Source: Serinicoccus profundi | GTDB lineage: Bacteria; Actinomycetota; Actinomycetes; Actinomycetales; Dermatophilaceae | Direction: 5' to 3' | DNA length: 64,000 nt | Assembly (NCBI RefSeq): GCF_008001015.1 | Contig: NZ_CP042862.1 | Coordinates: forward strand, 2,232,001 to 2,296,000 | Translations under genes and position numbers: made by a program | Part shown: piece after piece, positions 47,851 to 54,716 of the stretch | Layout: each line of letters begins with the position of its first letter | Position numbering within the stretch: the first letter of the stretch is position 1 | Notes under the pieces: generated by a model | Database searches by the model: none | What the model saw: the letters and a program-made list of their open reading frames with translations, nothing else | What the model was told of the DNA's origin: nothing

Positions 47851-49119
47851 TCATCGCAGCTTCCACCGCACACCGGTGGCGTCGACCTGGGCCGTGGCGT
47901 CGTGCTGGTGGACCCACGTGTGGTACCTGGGACACAGCAAGGCGTAGTTGGCGAGGTCCGATCGTCCGCCCCTGGCCCAGTGGACGACATGATGCGCATC
48001 GCACCAGGACGCCGGCACGTGGCACCCCGGGAACGTGCACCCCTGATCTCGGTGAGCGAGGGCTCGTCGCTGCCCCGGGGTGACCAGTCGGCGGGCGCAC
48101 CCGAGGTCGAGGATCTCGCCCTTCTCGCCGAGCACGGCCGGGATGAGGTCGGCCTCGCACGCGAGCTGGCGCACCTGACCGGCGCTCAGGGTGCCGTCGT
48201 GCACGGTGACCCCCGCTCCACGTAGGGCACCGGTGAGCTCGTCGAGTGCCATGGTCACCATGACCTGCGCCTTGGGCGTGGTCGGTTGACCCTCACTGCC
48301 GGCCACCCCTCGACGGAGGACCGTCATGAAGGCGTCATATCGGCGCTGCCCCGGCGTGCGCGTGTCCAGCATCGCGGTCATCCCTGGTGCAGTCGTCGCC
48401 GTCACCCCTTGTGCAGTCGTCGCTGACGTCCCTGGCGCAGTCGTCGCCGTCGTCGCCGTTGCCGTCGAAACTGTCGTCGACGTGGTCGCGGTCGGGGCGC
48501 CGCCGTCACCCGTGGCCGTGACCGGCGCTGCCAACGGCGAGCGGAGGATGGCCTGGATCGTCGCGACGTCGGCGTCATCGCCGACCGTGAGCACGAAGCG
48601 ACGCACCGACCCGTCGGCGAGCGAGGACTCGTGCAGGTCGCGCAGCTCGTGTCGAGCCTTCTCCCGGGCGACCTGCTCGCGCTCGGACAGGCAGGACGCC
48701 ACGAGCTTCGAGGTGATCCTGGTCAGAGCCTTGTCGTCGAAGCGGTCATCACCGGCCGCAGCGGCGAGGAGCTCGGTCGCCTCCGCATACTCCGACTCCC
48801 CCACCGCTGGTCGGATCCGCCCGAGCGCCCGTAGCACCGACGCGGCGCGCGAGACGGTCACCGACCCACGCTCGACCGCGTCGAGCAGCGGCTGGTGGAC
48901 CTGCTCCTGGCCGGCCCGGGCCACGGTCGCCACCTCGGCGGCCTCACGGGTCGACAACCCGGGGCACTGACTCCTCACCCAGTCGATGACGGAGAACCCG
49001 GAACCCACGTGCAGTCCCCGCGTGATGGCCTCCCGCGCCACCGTCACCAGGAGCGACTGAATCCGTGCCAGCGCGGTGTCGAGGCCGGACAGCACCTGCG
49101 AGAGCTCCTGCTCATGCAC
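47851..49119 (-). CDS. DUF222/13E12-type HNH endonuclease (N-terminus possibly frameshifted)
   Basis: From the GTG at 49119 this gives 422 residues. The N-terminal helical DUF222 domain (LSGLDTALARIQSLLVTVA, ELATELLAAAAGDDRFDDKAL-like TELLAAAAGDDRFDDKALTR) leads to a Thr/Ala low-complexity stretch and then the HNH nuclease: QGCTFPGCHVPASWCDAHHV, HWARGGRSDLANYALLCPRY, HTWVHQ. These multicopy actinobacterial genes are damage-inducible in mycobacteria. No ribosome site precedes GTG 49119. A much better start, ATG 49265 behind a PafBC-type promoter, lies in another frame (see 49044-49265), so either the gene carries a frameshift or the true start differs. Confidence 0.75.
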   Translation of the reverse strand: MHEQELSQVLSGLDTALARIQSLLVTVAREAITRGLHVGSGFSVIDWVRSQCPGLSTREAAEVATVARAGQEQVHQPLLDAVERGSVTVSRAASVLRALGRIRPAVGESEYAEATELLAAAAGDDRFDDKALTRITSKLVASCLSEREQVAREKARHELRDLHESSLADGSVRRFVLTVGDDADVATIQAILRSPLAAPVTATGDGGAPTATTSTTVSTATATTATTAPGTSATTAQGVTATTAPGMTAMLDTRTPGQRRYDAFMTVLRRGVAGSEGQPTTPKAQVMVTMALDELTGALRGAGVTVHDGTLSAGQVRQLACEADLIPAVLGEKGEILDLGCARRLVTPGQRRALAHRDQGCTFPGCHVPASWCDAHHVVHWARGGRSDLANYALLCPRYHTWVHQHDATAQVDATGVRWKLR

Positions 49120-49265
49120 AGCGCCGGCCGGCTCAGAGCGACCACAGCGCGGTCCAGACCACGGCTCACCTCGTCGATGGCACCGGCGCACCCCGGCTCG
49201 ACGCCCCTCGTCCTGGGGTCCCGGCCACCGCCCGACGGACCCTCGCCCCCGCGATTCCCCTTCAT
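49044..49265 (-). other. likely original N-terminal segment of the HNH gene in another frame
   Basis: ATG 49265 lies seven bases behind TACAGT. Its frame reads MKGNRGGEGPSGGG, then AIDEVSRGLDRAVVALSRPA, which looks like the usual DUF222 opening, but runs out of frame with the HNH gene; a -1 change near 49120-49140, within GCCGGCCGGC, would join them as ...ALSRPAGAVHEQELSQVLSGL. Confidence 0.45.
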
Positions 49266-49272
49266 GCGAACA

Positions 49273-49295
49273 ACTGTACGACCGCCGACTGACAG
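49273..49295 (-). promoter_or_regulatory. PafBC (RecA-NDp)-type promoter of the HNH gene
   Basis: On the minus strand CTGTCAGTC, eight bases, TACAGT, then seven bases to ATG 49265. It fits TTGTCRGTG-N8-TANNNT closely. Confidence 0.65.
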
Positions 49296-49346
49296 ACCTT
49301 CCCACCTGCGCTGATGCCCCCCACTGGCGACTCGGACGCTGCGGCG

Positions 49347-49352
49347 TAGGCT
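49347..49352 (+). promoter_or_regulatory. -10 element of the S9 peptidase gene
   Basis: TAGGCT seven bases before the GTG at 49360. Confidence 0.55.
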
Positions 49353-49359
49353 CGTTCTG

Positions 49360-51303
49360 GTGAAACCTGGCGACCTCACCCTGATCCGCACCCTCTCCTC
49401 CCCGACCGTCCACCCCGCTGGACGAGACACCGTCGTGGTCCTCAGTCGGCCCGACGTGGAGGACAACCGCTACCGCACCAGCCTGTGGCGCCTGGACCTC
49501 ACGGTCGAGGACGCCGAACTGACCCGGCTCACCCACGGCACCCGCGACTCCGCCCCCCGCTACTCCCCCGACGGCACCCGGCTCGCCTTCCTCCGCGCTT
49601 CCGAGGACGGCCCGGCCCAGCTGCACGTCATGAGCACGGATGGCGGCGACGCACGCCTGCTGACCGACCAGCCGCTCGGTGTCGGCGCCTACTCCTGGTC
49701 CCCCGACAGCAGCCAGATCGTGTATGCCGCCCGCGTGCCCGAGGAGGGTCGCTACGGCACCGACACGGAGGTCAAGCCCGACCAGGAGGCGCCGCGCCTC
49801 ATCGAGCACAGCACCTACCTCGCGGACGGTCTCGGCTACGTGCTCGACCGACCGAGCGCGATCTTCCTGCTCGACCTCGCCCCCGTCGACGTCACCGACC
49901 CCCACGACCCGGCTGCGCCCGAGGCGATCCCCACCAGCACCCAGCTCACCCATGGCGCCGGCGACGACACGGCACCGGTCTTCCTGCACGGTGGCACCCG
50001 CGTCGCCTTCCTCGCCTCCCGCGACCGGCGGGGCACCTGGAGGCCCGACACCCTCGTGCGGGACGTGTGCTCGATCGACCTGCGCGGCAAGGGATTCCGC
50101 CGCCACACCGACGGGACGGGGTCCGTCGGCAGCCTCACCGTCGGCACCGACGGCACGGCCGTCTACGGCGCCAACGACCTCGGCCCGTCCCTCCAGGACT
50201 TCGTGGCCCACAATGCCGTCCTGCGCCGCCTGGACGGCCCCGGCGTGGCGCTCACGGACGCCGAGGACGACCACCTCGCCTGCTCACCCGTCATCGCCGA
50301 CGACGGCCGGGTCATCGCGGCCTTCGAGCGGCGCGGCGACACCGAGGTACGCGAACTCCCTTCCGGCACAGTCGTTCTCGACGGCCACGTGAGCGTCGAT
50401 GCGCTGGCGACCGGTGGCGACGTGACGGTCGCTGTCGCGGGAACGCGCACGTCATACTCCGAGCTGTTCGTGGGCCGCGGCAGCGAGCCGCTCACCCAGC
50501 GGACCGAGCTGGCGCGGCACCTCACCGGCTCGGCCGCGGCCATCGAACCGGAGGAGCTCGAGGCGACCTCGGGGGACGGCTACCCCGTCCACGGGTGGTT
50601 GTTCCGGCCCACCACCAAGGCACGTCGCAAGGCGGGCCACCCGGTGATCCTCATGATCCACGGCGGCCCCTACGCGCAGTACTCCGGCAACCTCTTCGAC
50701 GAGGCGCAGGTGCTCGCAGGTGCGGGGTATGCCGTCGTCATGGGTAACCCGCGCGGTGGTGCGGGGTACGGCGCGAGCCACGGGCGGGCGGTCAAGGAGG
50801 CGATCGGCACGGTCGATGTCACCGACCTCACCGCGCTGCTGGACCACGCGCTGACCCTGCCCGGGCTCGACAGCTCACGCCTCGGCGTCCAGGGCGGCTC
50901 CTACGGCGGTCTCATGACGACCTGGCTCGTCGGTCACAGCGACCGCTTCACCGCCGCGATCAGCGAGCGGGCCGTCAACGCCTGGGACTCCTTCGCCGGC
51001 ACCAGCGACATCGGCTGGTTCTTCGCCGACGAGTATGCCGGCGCCTACCAGCACGAGCAGTCGCCGCTGACCTGGGCCGACAACATCACCACCCCGACAC
51101 TGATCATCCACTCCGAGCGTGACTTCCGGTGCCCCCTGGAGCAGGGACAGCGCCTCTTCGCCCGCCTGAAGCGCAACGGTGTGCCGACCAAGCTGCTGAT
51201 CTTCCCGGGCGAAGGTCACGAGCTCTCCCGCAGCGGCCAGCCGCGCCACCGACAGCAGCGCTTCGAGCACATCCTCGACTGGTGGGCCGAGCACCTGCGC
51301 TAG
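49360..51303 (+). CDS. S9-family prolyl oligopeptidase/acylaminoacyl peptidase
   Basis: A 647-residue serine peptidase. The N-terminal part (~1-390) is a beta-propeller with WD40/TolB-like strands (RDSAPRYSPDGTRLAFLR, GAYSWSPDSSQIVYAAR). The C-terminal alpha/beta hydrolase has the oxyanion region MIHGGPYAQYSG, nucleophile Ser in VQGGSYGGLMTTW, Asp in IIHSERDFRCPLEQ, and His in FPGEGHELS. No signal peptide, so it acts on peptides in the cytosol. Leaderless start. Its TAG stop shares CTAG with the stop of the convergent fusion gene. Confidence 0.93.
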   Translation: MKPGDLTLIRTLSSPTVHPAGRDTVVVLSRPDVEDNRYRTSLWRLDLTVEDAELTRLTHGTRDSAPRYSPDGTRLAFLRASEDGPAQLHVMSTDGGDARLLTDQPLGVGAYSWSPDSSQIVYAARVPEEGRYGTDTEVKPDQEAPRLIEHSTYLADGLGYVLDRPSAIFLLDLAPVDVTDPHDPAAPEAIPTSTQLTHGAGDDTAPVFLHGGTRVAFLASRDRRGTWRPDTLVRDVCSIDLRGKGFRRHTDGTGSVGSLTVGTDGTAVYGANDLGPSLQDFVAHNAVLRRLDGPGVALTDAEDDHLACSPVIADDGRVIAAFERRGDTEVRELPSGTVVLDGHVSVDALATGGDVTVAVAGTRTSYSELFVGRGSEPLTQRTELARHLTGSAAAIEPEELEATSGDGYPVHGWLFRPTTKARRKAGHPVILMIHGGPYAQYSGNLFDEAQVLAGAGYAVVMGNPRGGAGYGASHGRAVKEAIGTVDVTDLTALLDHALTLPGLDSSRLGVQGGSYGGLMTTWLVGHSDRFTAAISERAVNAWDSFAGTSDIGWFFADEYAGAYQHEQSPLTWADNITTPTLIIHSERDFRCPLEQGQRLFARLKRNGVPTKLLIFPGEGHELSRSGQPRHRQQRFEHILDWWAEHLR

Positions 51304-52835
51304 GCGGTTCCGCTCCGCTGGTATCCGAGCCGCGACATGAGCGCGCCGCACCTTGCCTCGATCCTGCGGAGGTTGTCCGGACCGAAGAACGCCTCCGGAG
51401 AGATCTCGCGATCTCCCCGGGGCTGGAACTGTCGGTCCTGCGAGCCGGTGATGTCGTGGACGACCGGGCGGCCCAATGATCGGGACAGCTTCTCGATCTG
51501 CCCGCGCTTGTCGGTGCAGAAGTCCTCGTACCGGATGAGGGTTATCCGGTCTGCGGCCTCGAGGTAGGCCGACACGGCGCGCGCCCATCTCTCGGCCAGC
51601 GCCTCGACATACTGCTGCGGCTCGGCGACGATCCCCGCATTGGTCACGATGGAGTGCCAGCCGGGAAGTGTGTCGCGGAGGTGGGCGTACTGCTCGGTGG
51701 TCAGATCCTGCTGGGAGCCAGGGAGATCCACCCTATTGAGGATGCTCCTGATGTTGTCCCTTGGGTCGCGGACGACGAAGACCACGGGCGCATCCGGGAA
51801 GGCAGCCCGCAGCGAAGGAAGGATGAAGATGAAGTCGTTGTCCTTCACGACCTCGGCGGAGAAAGCTTTGGAGCGTCGTTGGGCCAGCGCAGCGATGGCT
51901 TCGTCCTGCCCCAGCAGGTCCTCCAGCCGGGTGCGGCTCTGATACAACACGTCAAGGGACGGCTTGCCACCCATGCATTCGGCCAGCAGAGCAGCGATCG
52001 CCGTGCTTCCCGACTTTTGATTACCCAGCACGAACACCGGTGACGTCCCTACGCCGGTCGGGCCCGTGGTCGGGGGAGGGCTCACCCGCTCCTGCTGCTG
52101 GCCTTGCGCCGGGCCCGGCGAAGGGATGTCAGCGGCCGTCTCCCGCGAGATGGCCACGACCCGGCTGACGTAGCCCGACCTGCGCAGGGCTGAGAACTCG
52201 TCCTTGACGGACTGGCGGCCGAACTGCTGGTAGGCAGCCACCGCGATCTGTATCTGATCACTGGTGCTCCGTGTCGGTCGATAGAGCGCGGCCTCCCCCG
52301 ACATGAGGGTGCCCAGGCTGAACCTCACTACGCGGTGACCGAGACCACGGACCGCCCCAGCGACCGCGCGGTGGTCCGGATGGCCATCCTCAGGATGCGC
52401 CGCTACGACCCACCGGGCCCCCCGACGATCGAGCTTCTTCAGGGCCTTGCGGACGTCCGCCACTTGCACGTTGCCATCCGGAAGACCCAGTCGGATGATC
52501 TGCCCAGCACCAGCGGTGAGCGCCGACCATGCGGCCGCCTGCTCGGACCGGCGGAACTCCTGCTCGTACGCCTCGGTCCACCCATTGATCCGAGCCCGCT
52601 GCGAAGCACCACCGTCGCTGACGGCAACCAGGACGACGGGGTGTGACGTTCGGGCGCACAACCACGGGATGTAGGCCGCGAGCCGTAGGGTCTCGTCGTC
52701 TGGGTGCGGCGAGACCACATAGGTCACTGGGCGGGACAACACAGAGGCGACGCGCCGCGATCCCTGACGGACATGCTTGCGCAACGCCGCCCGACTGGGG
52801 GCGTGACCAAGCATGTTCCGCATCATCGAGAGCAT
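51300..52835 (-). CDS. PIG-L deacetylase-sulfotransferase fusion protein
   Basis: A 511-residue two-domain protein. Residues ~35-235 are a PIG-L/LmbE zinc N-deacetylase: VVSPHPDDETLRLAAYIPWL with ligands H44/D47, and AAHPEDGHPDHRAV with H152/H155. A Pro/Gln-rich linker (236-264) leads to a PAPS-type sulfotransferase: 5'-phosphosulfate loop VFVLGNQKSGSTAIAALL (near 271-280) and 3'-phosphate motif VVFVVRDPRDNIRSILNR (near 356-368). No signal peptide or membrane helix. It would deacetylate an N-acetyl sugar and sulfate it or a linked group. Substrate unknown. The base composition is visibly less GC-rich than neighbours, hinting at transfer. The start follows TAGCCT at six bases. Confidence 0.88.
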   Translation of the reverse strand: MLSMMRNMLGHAPSRAALRKHVRQGSRRVASVLSRPVTYVVSPHPDDETLRLAAYIPWLCARTSHPVVLVAVSDGGASQRARINGWTEAYEQEFRRSEQAAAWSALTAGAGQIIRLGLPDGNVQVADVRKALKKLDRRGARWVVAAHPEDGHPDHRAVAGAVRGLGHRVVRFSLGTLMSGEAALYRPTRSTSDQIQIAVAAYQQFGRQSVKDEFSALRRSGYVSRVVAISRETAADIPSPGPAQGQQQERVSPPPTTGPTGVGTSPVFVLGNQKSGSTAIAALLAECMGGKPSLDVLYQSRTRLEDLLGQDEAIAALAQRRSKAFSAEVVKDNDFIFILPSLRAAFPDAPVVFVVRDPRDNIRSILNRVDLPGSQQDLTTEQYAHLRDTLPGWHSIVTNAGIVAEPQQYVEALAERWARAVSAYLEAADRITLIRYEDFCTDKRGQIEKLSRSLGRPVVHDITGSQDRQFQPRGDREISPEAFFGPDNLRRIEARCGALMSRLGYQRSGTA

Positions 52836-52841
52836 GCTGGG

Positions 52842-52847
52842 AGGCTA
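52842..52847 (-). promoter_or_regulatory. -10 element of the PIG-L/sulfotransferase gene
   Basis: TAGCCT on the minus strand six bases before the ATG at 52835; it implies this gene is transcribed apart from the operon at 52873-55929. Confidence 0.55.
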
Positions 52848-52872
52848 ACAAGGCGCCCATCGCCGGGTCTGA

Positions 52873-53124
52873 CTACCTTCTGGAGCGCGATAGCCGGCCC
52901 CAGCGGTAGCACCCCAGGCCCAGCACCACGGCGCCGACGCCGATCAGACCCATGCCCACCCCGTCCTGCCAGAGGATGACGCGGGTCGGCTCGATCTCCT
53001 GATAGGCGAACCACCCGAAGCTTCGTGGCACGAAGAAGGGCAGCAGCCCACCAGCAACGACCATCGAGGCTCCGGTCGCGGCCAGCGCCTTTGCGTGCCC
53101 GCTCGACCGACGCTCCTGCACCAT
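52873..53124 (-). CDS. small two-helix membrane protein
   Basis: 83 residues with two hydrophobic segments (about 15-35, ALAATGASMVVAGGLLPFFV, and 50-72, VGMGLIGVGAVVLGLGCY) and basic ends. Its ATG shares a base with the carboxylase stop (TGATG), so it is cotranscribed. In many actinobacteria a small epsilon subunit follows the carboxylase beta gene; this protein is membrane-bound and does not look like one. Function unknown. Confidence 0.65.
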   Translation of the reverse strand: MVQERRSSGHAKALAATGASMVVAGGLLPFFVPRSFGWFAYQEIEPTRVILWQDGVGMGLIGVGAVVLGLGCYRWGRLSRSRR

Positions 53125-54716
53125 CACACCGGCGGGATGCTGCGGTGGCGGGTGGAGAAGTGCCGGTCCCGACGAGACGCATACCTCAGCCGGTGCACGA
53201 CCTCGGCCCGCAGGTCCTCGGGTTCGGTGATGGCGTCGATGACGAGGTCGGCAGCGAGCCGCTCCAGGTCGACGTCCTCGAGGTACTCCGCGCGCTTGGC
53301 GTCGATGAACTCCTGCCGCGCGTCGAGGTCCTGGATCTCCGCGATCTTGTTGGCGTAGACCGCGTTGACGGCGGCCTCGGGCCCCATGACCGCGATCCGC
53401 GCCGTGGGCAGCGCGATGGTCGCCTCGGGGCCGAAGCCCGGCCCGCCCATGGCATACAACCCGGCGCCGTAGGCCTTGCGGAGCACGATGCACAGCTGCG
53501 GCACGGTCGCCTCCGACACCGCCGAGACCATCTTGGCACCGTGCCGGATGATCCCGCCGCGCTCGACCTCGGACCCGATCATGAAGCCCGGGACGTCGGC
53601 GAGGTAGAGCAGCGGGATGCCGTAGGCGTCGCACAGCCAGATGAAGCGTGAGGCCTTGTCGGCCGAGTCGGTGAAGAGCACGCCGCCCTTGACCGCGGAG
53701 TTGTTGGCCACGATCCCGACGCTCTGCCCGTCGATGCGCCCCAGCCCGACGACGAGCTCGGCCGCGAAGAGCGGCTTGACCTCGAAGAAGCTGTCGTCGT
53801 CGACGAGACCCTCGATCACCTCGTGCACGTCGAAGGGCACCGACTCCGCCTCGGGCACGGTATGCCGTGTCAGCGGCGTCGCGGGCTCCTCACCCTCGTA
53901 GGCGGGCGTCGGGGCGCGCCACGACTCGGGCAGGTAGGAGAAGAAGTGGCGCGCCAGCTCGATCGCCTCGGTGTCATCGGCGGCGAGCAGGTCCCCCACC
54001 CCCGAGACGGTGCAGTGCATGCGGGCACCGCCCATCTCCTCCAGCGACACCTTCTCCCCCACGACCATCTCGGCCATCCGAGGGCTGCCGAGATACATCG
54101 AGGCGTTGCCCTCGACCATGATGATGAGGTCGGTGAAACTGGGGATGTAGGCCCCACCGGCTGCGCTCGGCCCGAAGAGGCAGCAGATCTGCGGCACCTT
54201 GCCCGAGAGCGCGACCTGGTTGTGGAAGATCCGGCCCGCCCCGCGCCGCCCCGGGAAGAGGTCGACCTGGTCGGTGATCCGCGCACCCGCGGAGTCGACG
54301 AACCAGAAGATCGGCAGCTCCTCGCGCAGCGCCGCCTCGGTGGCCCGGATGATCTTCTCAACCGTCCGTGCCCCCCACGACCCGGCCTTGACCGTCGGGT
54401 CGTTGGCGACGACGATCGCCGCCCGCCCGTCGACCTCACCCCGACCCGTCACCACACCGTCGGCCGGCAGACCGGCCGCGGTGGCGTTGGCATACCGCCC
54501 GTCCTCGACGAAGGTGCCCTCGTCGAAGAGCAGCGCGATCCGGTCGCGGACGTAGAGCTTGTTCTGGCTGTCGAGCTTGGCGCGCGCCTTCTCCCCCGGC
54601 CCGGCGGAGTCCGTATGCGCACGCTCCAGCCGGGCCCGCAGGTCGGCGACGCGCGGGTCGCCCTGGCCCGCGACGGGGCCGGAGTCGTCTGCGCTGGCGC
54701 TCGTCATACCGGTCAT
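53124..54716 (-). CDS. acyl-CoA carboxylase beta (carboxyltransferase) subunit
   Basis: The 530-residue protein has both crotonase-like lobes of the AccD/PccB family. N-lobe: GSWGARTVEKIIRATEAAL, FGPSAAGGAYIPSFTDLII and GGARMHCTVSGVGDLLA. C-lobe: PLLYLADVPGFMIG and LRKAYGAGLYAMGG. It transfers CO2 from biotin to an acyl-CoA. The pocket loop (ASMYLGSPRMAEMVVGEKVS) differs from methylcrotonyl-CoA carboxylases, which read TIFLGGPPLV there, so the substrate is open. It follows the acyl-CoA dehydrogenase gene by 28 bp; a biotin-bearing partner is at 56523 on the other strand. Confidence 0.92.
   Translation of the reverse strand: MTGMTSASADDSGPVAGQGDPRVADLRARLERAHTDSAGPGEKARAKLDSQNKLYVRDRIALLFDEGTFVEDGRYANATAAGLPADGVVTGRGEVDGRAAIVVANDPTVKAGSWGARTVEKIIRATEAALREELPIFWFVDSAGARITDQVDLFPGRRGAGRIFHNQVALSGKVPQICCLFGPSAAGGAYIPSFTDLIIMVEGNASMYLGSPRMAEMVVGEKVSLEEMGGARMHCTVSGVGDLLAADDTEAIELARHFFSYLPESWRAPTPAYEGEEPATPLTRHTVPEAESVPFDVHEVIEGLVDDDSFFEVKPLFAAELVVGLGRIDGQSVGIVANNSAVKGGVLFTDSADKASRFIWLCDAYGIPLLYLADVPGFMIGSEVERGGIIRHGAKMVSAVSEATVPQLCIVLRKAYGAGLYAMGGPGFGPEATIALPTARIAVMGPEAAVNAVYANKIAEIQDLDARQEFIDAKRAEYLEDVDLERLAADLVIDAITEPEDLRAEVVHRLRYASRRDRHFSTRHRSIPPV

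Follow-up and report, generated by a model that had tools for sequence, protein, structure and literature searches.

Could a bacterium have assembled, from domains of its own, a single protein that frees an amine on a sugar and then sulfates it? Animals that make heparin-like sugars carry a deacetylase and a sulfotransferase in one chain (NDST), and a preliminary description of a 64,000-nt stretch of the Serinicoccus profundi genome (hereafter, the window) had proposed a bacterial analogue. The candidate is a single open reading frame (positions 51300..52835, minus strand, stop codon included) that starts with ATG and encodes 511 aa, in which a PIG-L domain precedes a sulfotransferase half.

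Results

Both Pfam matches exceed their cut-offs and the zinc and PAPS motifs are intact, which bears out the description of two domains in one frame. The PIG-L domain (residues 40–163; 52347..52718, minus strand) matched PF02585 at 64 bits against a curated cut-off of 28.2 (E = 2.5e-17), and its fold was recovered by matches spanning residues 34–232, among them MshB, BshB, the teicoplanin deacetylase and GalB. The PHPDDE motif (residues 43–48; 52692..52709, minus strand) holds the predicted zinc ligands H44 and D47 and the predicted base D46, and HPDH (residues 152–155; 52371..52382, minus strand) holds H152 and the predicted ligand H155, roles that we assume to be those of the MshB residues. 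All of H44, D46, D47, H152, D154 and H155 are present, and each is shared by 90% or more of the 22 rows of alignment A3. Profile, zinc motifs and fold are thus common to the fusion and to PIG-L/LmbE enzymes (MshB, BshB, teicoplanin Orf2, diacetylchitobiose deacetylase), from which it differs in its added sulfotransferase and in scoring far under the NCBIfam BshB equivalog cut-offs (19.5 and 14.8 bits vs 182.5 and 195.25).

The sulfotransferase half (residues 259–511; 51303..52061, minus strand) was recognized by Pfam profile, structure model and fold matches. It matched Sulfotransfer_3 at 55.9 bits (curated cut-off 27, E = 9.2e-15) as well as Sulfotransfer_1 (E = 7.5e-7). The model of this half (pLDDT 84.7, pTM 0.85) has a sulfotransferase fold, closest to TPST and near the 3-O-sulfotransferases; the full-length model (mean pLDDT 52.6) was uninformative on it. 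Compared with other proteins of the Sulfotransfer_3/tyrosylprotein sulfotransferase fold, this half is bacterial, fused and part of a small family. The predicted 5'-phosphosulfate loop GNQKSGST (residues 271–278; 52002..52025, minus strand) retains K274–T278, and the predicted 3'-phosphate motif VVRDPRDNIRS (residues 354–364; 51744..51776, minus strand) contains R356 and S364, an Arg and a Ser that all 13 rows of alignment A4 share; both motifs presumably act here in their usual roles. Asp295 of DVLY (51951..51953, minus strand), invariant in all four rows of alignment A2, is a candidate catalytic base, at what we take to be the distance of TPST2 Glu99 from the P-loop. Loss of zinc or PAPS-binding residues had been named beforehand as grounds for abandoning the proposal, and on alignment both sets are kept. 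The halves are joined by a fast-evolving, Pro/Gln-rich linker (about residues 233–258; 52062..52139, minus strand), and no membrane anchor was seen in the protein.

Full-length orthologues (74% identity) occur in two other Serinicoccus species (G012, G020); a third (G016) has a copy broken in two by a frameshift that falls within the PAPS 3'-phosphate motif. The dN/dS ratio is about 0.17 in the PIG-L half and 0.20–0.22 in the sulfotransferase half; the linker (24 codons) gave 0.40 and 1.4. Purifying selection acts on both halves. Because orthologous fusions exist and dN/dS is low in both halves, a chance fusion is rejected; the preliminary description had envisaged that the domains might otherwise always be separate genes, and separate-gene homologues do exist in two genomes (G018, G013), but the fusion is kept in two more species.

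No further PIG-L/sulfotransferase fusion was found beyond Serinicoccus in the samples searched. In a scan of genome contigs with one PIG-L pattern, only L028 (S. sediminis) carried the sulfotransferase half among the best 80 of 202 PIG-L relatives. Searches for further members of the sulfotransferase family found none in 395 other genomes sampled from the order (1e-6) or in 395 sampled from the phylum (1e-8); these searches and those of the class may have missed relatives, because they scored no more than 3 to 6 first-look candidates per genome. All three proteins scanned from other genera (L024, L025 and L026) are fusions of PIG-L to a NodS-like methyltransferase; like our protein, they place PIG-L first and a group-transfer domain second in one chain, and they differ in having a methyltransferase for the sulfotransferase and PIG-L halves only 37–41% identical to that of our protein over about 130 residues. 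Plasmid, viral and defence associations were each rejected: there was no plasmid match at 1e-8, none of 164 pattern matches of the sulfotransferase alignment in viral contigs was a relative, and PADLOC had no match for the fusion protein or for the GNAT–PIG-L protein described below.

The gene lies at a cassette site, which is bordered by a convergent Peptidase_S9 gene (49360..51303, plus strand), the fixed border, and by a carboxyl transferase gene of the acyl-CoA carboxylase beta type (53124..54716, minus strand), with a small membrane-protein-like gene (52894..53124, minus strand) between carboxylase and fusion. Genes were named by Pfam scan or marked by eye, and some script-picked reading frames are shadows (e.g. 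over cysN). This one syntenic site houses the fusion gene in four Serinicoccus species. An observation new to this analysis is that the same site holds a fusion of a GNAT acyltransferase to PIG-L in five sister species: across 17 of the 18 S9-bearing genomes (G014 left out; the G013 stretch is without the carboxylase gene), it carries GNAT–PIG-L in 5 of 17 species, PIG-L–sulfotransferase in 4 and neither in 8. Both fusions pair PIG-L with a group-transfer domain, but GNAT–PIG-L has an acyltransferase for the sulfotransferase, the reverse domain order and a PIG-L domain of another subfamily, and, unlike its counterpart, is preceded by a stop–start-coupled GNAT gene.

The preliminary description had read the gene as lower in GC than its surroundings, driven by its own promoter and perhaps acquired. 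The two 1-kb blocks of the fusion have GC contents of 0.659 and 0.683 (0.693–0.776 in the remaining 62 blocks of the window) and its GC3 is 0.81, as against 0.92 and 0.94 for the genes on either side; low GC is therefore true of the S. profundi copy but not of the orthologues, with GC3 of 0.97 (G020) and 0.96 (G012). There is no sigma-70 consensus match on the gene's strand within 51000–53400, but a putative leaderless-type –10 element, TAGCCT (52842..52847, minus strand), stands 6 nt before the ATG, and this TAGCCT-6nt-ATG arrangement is identical in all four species with the fusion; we take the element to fit the leaderless-type consensus. Across the whole window, on both strands, 19 of 1085 ATGs have TANNNT 5–8 nt upstream. 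Acquisition is borne out only in part: trees of the flanking genes (best matching piece of each gene only) show recombination at the site within the genus, but the site is one and the same in four species and no donor outside the genus was found in the samples searched.

The absence of pathway neighbours, also claimed previously, holds at the fusion locus, where the flanking genes show no biosynthetic cluster, but not for homologues of the separate halves. These lone homologues adjoin glycan genes and, in one case, PAPS synthesis genes, a second new observation. In G018, cysD and cysN immediately precede a lone sulfotransferase homologue (53%); cysC, TauE and a separate PIG-L gene lie at most 6 kb from it, and the 24 kb before it contain Polysacc_synt_2, Bac_transf, glycosyltransferase, Wzy_C and flippase genes. 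The closest lone PIG-L homologue (47%), in G013, directly follows an inositol-1-phosphate synthase gene and lies near glycosyltransferases, next but one to a GNAT gene that is homologous to the GNAT half of GNAT–PIG-L (34%, 5e-60); UDP-sugar dehydrogenase and ABC transporter genes are 15–19 kb distant. An apparent PIG-L gene near the G004 cys cluster was rejected: the 77%-match reading frame is antisense to another gene, and a PIG-L query finds nothing there.

As a PAPS source, the S. profundi genome encodes an APS kinase (3006320–3006778), and beside it a PAPS_reduct-fold protein of CysD type and a GTPase of CysN type. In the genus, genes for APS kinase co-occur with those for Sulfotransfer_3, also a new finding. 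APS kinase (E < 1e-50) is present in 13 of 31 genomes, namely 6/6 with a homologue of the fusion protein and 7/25 without (Fisher 0.0023), a count that leaves out one weak second match in G007 and the PF01583 matches of G019, G021 and G026 (3e-4 to 5e-4, 21.2–22.2 bits), taken as other kinases despite exceeding the curated cut-off of 21.1. Sulfotransfer_3 exceeds its cut-off in all 13 genomes with APS kinase and in 2 of the 18 others (5e-7), G024 being left out as a bearer with PF13469 below cut-off.

Discussion

The fusion is not a member of the NDST family, and NDST-like working would be convergence. The first half of NDST is an NDST-type deacetylase and that of the fusion, by profile and fold, is PIG-L; the fusion's nearest sulfotransferase fold is TPST, and it has no visible anchor. 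Membership apart, no test run here overturned the two-domain architecture, the intact motifs or the idea of an NDST-like enzyme. The available portion of PMC13353177 describes a man-made NDST for bacterial use, which combines an NST domain with polysaccharide deacetylases and so resembles the fusion in joining a deacetylase to a sulfotransferase, and makes no mention of a natural bacterial fusion of this kind.

We tentatively propose, at somewhat less than even confidence, that the protein is a PAPS-dependent tailoring enzyme of the cytoplasm, which acts on a surface-glycan precursor, de-N-acetylating one of its amino sugars and sulfating that sugar, probably at the amine so exposed; from the domains and their genomic associations we infer deacetylase activity, glycan substrate, coupling and N-attachment alike. 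The protein would be soluble, bifunctional and glycan-tailoring. Its PIG-L half, with zinc on H44, D47 and H155, would take the acetyl group off an N-acetylated amino sugar carried by a surface-polysaccharide precursor, itself cytoplasmic and probably lipid-linked, and its C-terminal half would take PAPS, supplied by cysD, cysN and cysC encoded elsewhere in the genome, and place sulfate on the same glycan, most probably onto the newly freed amine. One chain would thus do the job of NDST with an unrelated deacetylase. The module can be read as one that unmasks an amine and then caps it ("unmask and cap"), the cap being exchangeable, since GNAT–PIG-L occupies the same site and PIG-L is fused to NodS-like methyltransferases in other genera. 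NodS acts on the amine freed by NodB.

Sulfate might instead go to a hydroxyl of the same glycan, the PIG-L half leaving a free amine, and we regard this as rather unlikely. The fold, closest to TPST and near the 3-O-sulfotransferases, agrees with it, as does G018, where both functions are separate genes and a hand-over of the amine is needless; Nod factors (NodB, NodH) combine deacetylation with O-sulfation. It leaves unexplained, however, why PIG-L is joined to GNAT or to a NodS-like methyltransferase, whose acyltransferase and methyltransferase relatives act on amines. A small-molecule or glycolipid substrate (GlcNAc-inositol, a natural product) in place of a polysaccharide precursor seems less likely still: MshB, BshB, the teicoplanin deacetylase and GalB are among the PIG-L fold matches, and the G013 homologue follows inositol-1-phosphate synthase, but the G013 and G018 homologues also sit among glycosyltransferase and polysaccharide genes, and the fusion's flanks hold no visible cluster. 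A decaying or accidental fusion devoid of coupled function, to which the G016 frameshift and the narrow distribution might point, is highly improbable in view of two intact orthologues, low dN/dS in both halves and a conserved start and –10 element.

If the amine-capping enzyme proposed here is N-sulfating, bacteria would have a natural counterpart of NDST made of bacterial domains. The site itself is a natural experiment, with a PIG-L domain beside different transferase partners in near relatives; the surface-glycan chemistry of sister species can therefore be compared, and "unmask and cap" is directly testable. More speculatively, and with some doubt on our part, Serinicoccus may have evolved, separately from animals, a one-chain N-deacetylase/N-sulfotransferase that makes N-sulfated amino sugars in a surface polysaccharide, at a site that would swap N-sulfate and N-acylate cassettes and so switch coat charge between species.

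A conserved fusion protein in Serinicoccus

The gene at 51300-52835 (minus strand) is a single open reading frame for a 511-aa protein, as the preliminary description had it, and Pfam bears out both of its domains, with PIG-L at residues 40-163 (2.5e-17) and Sulfotransfer_3 in the same chain (9.2e-15). The zinc and PAPS motifs noted earlier are intact: the zinc/catalytic residues of the PIG-L half (H44, D46, D47, H152 and H155) and the PAPS residues of the sulfotransferase half (K274-T278, R356 and S364) are all present, their roles being taken from work on MshB, SULT and TPST. The protein looks soluble, because its highest 19-residue hydrophobicity, which lies within the sulfotransferase half, averages only 1.55 (Kyte-Doolittle).

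Homologues of this protein (PIG-L-ST) were found in 6 of the 31 genomes of the Serinicoccus genus group (1e-10). The complete fusion occurs in G012 and G020 as well as in the window's own genome, G000, and so the two domains are not always separate genes, a point on which the preliminary description had wanted a survey. In G016 a frameshift within the PAPS 3'-phosphate motif breaks the fusion in two (L018:9119-10651), reflecting sequencing error or decay, while G018 carries the sulfotransferase half alone (53% identity) and G013 the PIG-L half alone (47%). Searches beyond the genus used overlapping samples of the order, class and phylum, each a subset of the larger group. Nine of 396 order genomes matched, the eight besides G000 via the PIG-L half only; the class sample (394 genomes, 1e-15) held no match to the fusion protein beyond G000; the sulfotransferase half matched only itself in the 396 order genomes (1e-6), as did its profile in 396 phylum genomes (1e-8); and a plasmid search gave no match. 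Since none of these searches gave another, the fusion is known here from Serinicoccus only.

In comparisons of G000 with G020 and G012, the PIG-L half gave a dN/dS of 0.17 and the sulfotransferase half 0.20–0.22; the 24 linker codons gave 0.40 and 1.4. The fusion is real and conserved, and it looks functional.

Alternative fusions at a recombining site

All four PIG-L-ST fusions have a Peptidase_S9 gene on one side and a gene for a carboxyl-transferase (acyl-CoA carboxylase) on the other. The S9 gene of this site was found in 18 of the 31 genomes, and in the 17 whose site contents were examined the occupant was PIG-L-ST in four, a fusion of a GNAT acyltransferase (Acetyltransf_6) with PIG-L in five (G003, G004, G027, G028 and G030) and neither in eight. 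Like PIG-L-ST, GNAT-PIG-L is convergent with the S9 gene. In all five species its start is overlapped by the stop of an upstream GNAT gene of similar sequence (L163:2615-5154, with the equivalent position in L160, L161, L162 and L168), assigned to Acetyltransf_1 in the two copies scanned, those of G003 (7.3e-5) and G004 (5.3e-4, at the cut-off). The PIG-L domain of GNAT-PIG-L is 29% identical to that of PIG-L-ST and 32.5% identical to the PIG-L encoded in the cys cluster of G018; judging from sequence, it is of a different subfamily from the PIG-L of PIG-L-ST. In the window, an open reading frame with DUF222 and HNH domains (47851-50274) has a listed start overlapping the opposite-strand S9 gene, its true start probably lying further in.

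The DNA of G000 and G004 is 98.2% identical until the S9 gene ends, dissimilar across the cassette and 86% identical past it. In quick trees, made with no bootstrap, the S9 gene of G000 pairs with that of G004 (SH-aLRT 100), and the carboxylase gene of G004 groups with those of other GNAT-PIG-L species. One clade of the carboxylase tree holds all four PIG-L-ST species, G026 and every GNAT-PIG-L species except G030, which falls in the other. The shift in identity and the disagreement of the two trees over G004 point to recombination within the genus at the cassette site. The earlier suggestion of an acquired gene of lower GC stands only in part: the recombination is within the genus, and the low GC holds for the G000 copy (GC3 0.81) but not for those of G020 (0.97) and G012 (0.96).

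PAPS supply and surface-glycan genes

The PAPS genes of G000 lie ~0.72 Mb from the fusion, near flippase, sulfotransferase, Wzz (a match only 0.1 bit over the cut-off) and Wzy_C genes. This stretch, outside the window at 2.997-3.019 Mb (L125:4738-16740 and L137:1-6480), includes cysN, cysD, cysC and a transporter gene, and is likely a sulfated-exopolysaccharide locus. G000 has four PF13469 matches (one weak), and all but the fusion fall within 2.987-3.020 Mb. Across the genus, APS kinase was found in 13 of the 31 genomes (E < 1e-50). It was present in all six with a homologue of the fusion protein versus 7 of 25 without (Fisher 0.0023), and Sulfotransfer_3 exceeded its cut-off in all 13 APS-kinase genomes versus 2 of the 18 others (5e-7); counting three weak over-cut-off matches as APS kinase changes these values to 0.018 and 2e-4, and all of them are too small because the genomes share descent. 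The GNAT-PIG-L carrier G030 gave no match to APS kinase or Sulfotransfer_3, which is what a PAPS requirement confined to the sulfo cassette would predict. Several further sulfotransferase genes in the genus (L173, L174, L175 and L177) have atypical codon-position GC and are perhaps recent arrivals.

The lone sulfotransferase gene of G018 comes immediately after cysD and cysN and has APS kinase, TauE and PIG-L genes within 6 kb; the 24 kb preceding it contain Polysacc_synt_2, Bac_transf, Wzy_C, flippase and glycosyltransferase genes. In G013, an inositol-1-phosphate synthase gene immediately precedes the lone PIG-L gene, and after the PIG-L gene come a homologue of the GNAT in GNAT-PIG-L (34%, 5e-60) and two glycosyltransferase genes; farther off, at 15–19 kb, are genes for UDP-sugar dehydrogenase, glycosyltransferase and ABC transporter. 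From these neighbourhoods, the closest relatives found for each half sit among surface-glycan genes.

A possible unmask-and-cap mechanism

The partners found here for PIG-L domains are a sulfotransferase, a GNAT acyltransferase that occupies the same site and, in other genera of the order, a NodS-like methyltransferase, the last in all three proteins scanned with Pfam (L024:8687-10081, L025:9680-10996 and L026:9627-11132). NodS acts on the amine freed by NodB. Given these partners, the simplest common account is that an amine exposed by the PIG-L half is capped by the partner domain; this account does not cover a close PIG-L relative (L022:8089-9780) whose partner is a set of cell-wall-binding repeats (CW_binding_2). 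In PIG-L-ST, the PIG-L half would unmask the amine and the sulfotransferase half would then cap it with sulfate from PAPS. A possible alternative is tailoring at two sites, with the amine left free and the sulfate placed on oxygen. N-sulfation by PIG-L-ST stands as a good hypothesis rather than a demonstrated finding.

In the open-access literature, where absence is not absence in print, PIG-L with sulfotransferase returned by title only animal glycogenomics and LmbE with sulfotransferase nothing related; 'bacterial N-sulfotransferase', Serinicoccus with sulfotransferase, and PIG-L, sulfotransferase, fusion and deacetylase together returned none. Published sources do present NDST1, an animal heparan N-deacetylase/N-sulfotransferase (PMC10864358), an artificial NDST (PMC13353177) and sulfated capsules of marine bacteria (PMC11641403, PMC11766843). 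PIG-L-ST, found in one genus only, is a new architecture for a kind of enzyme pair that is already known.
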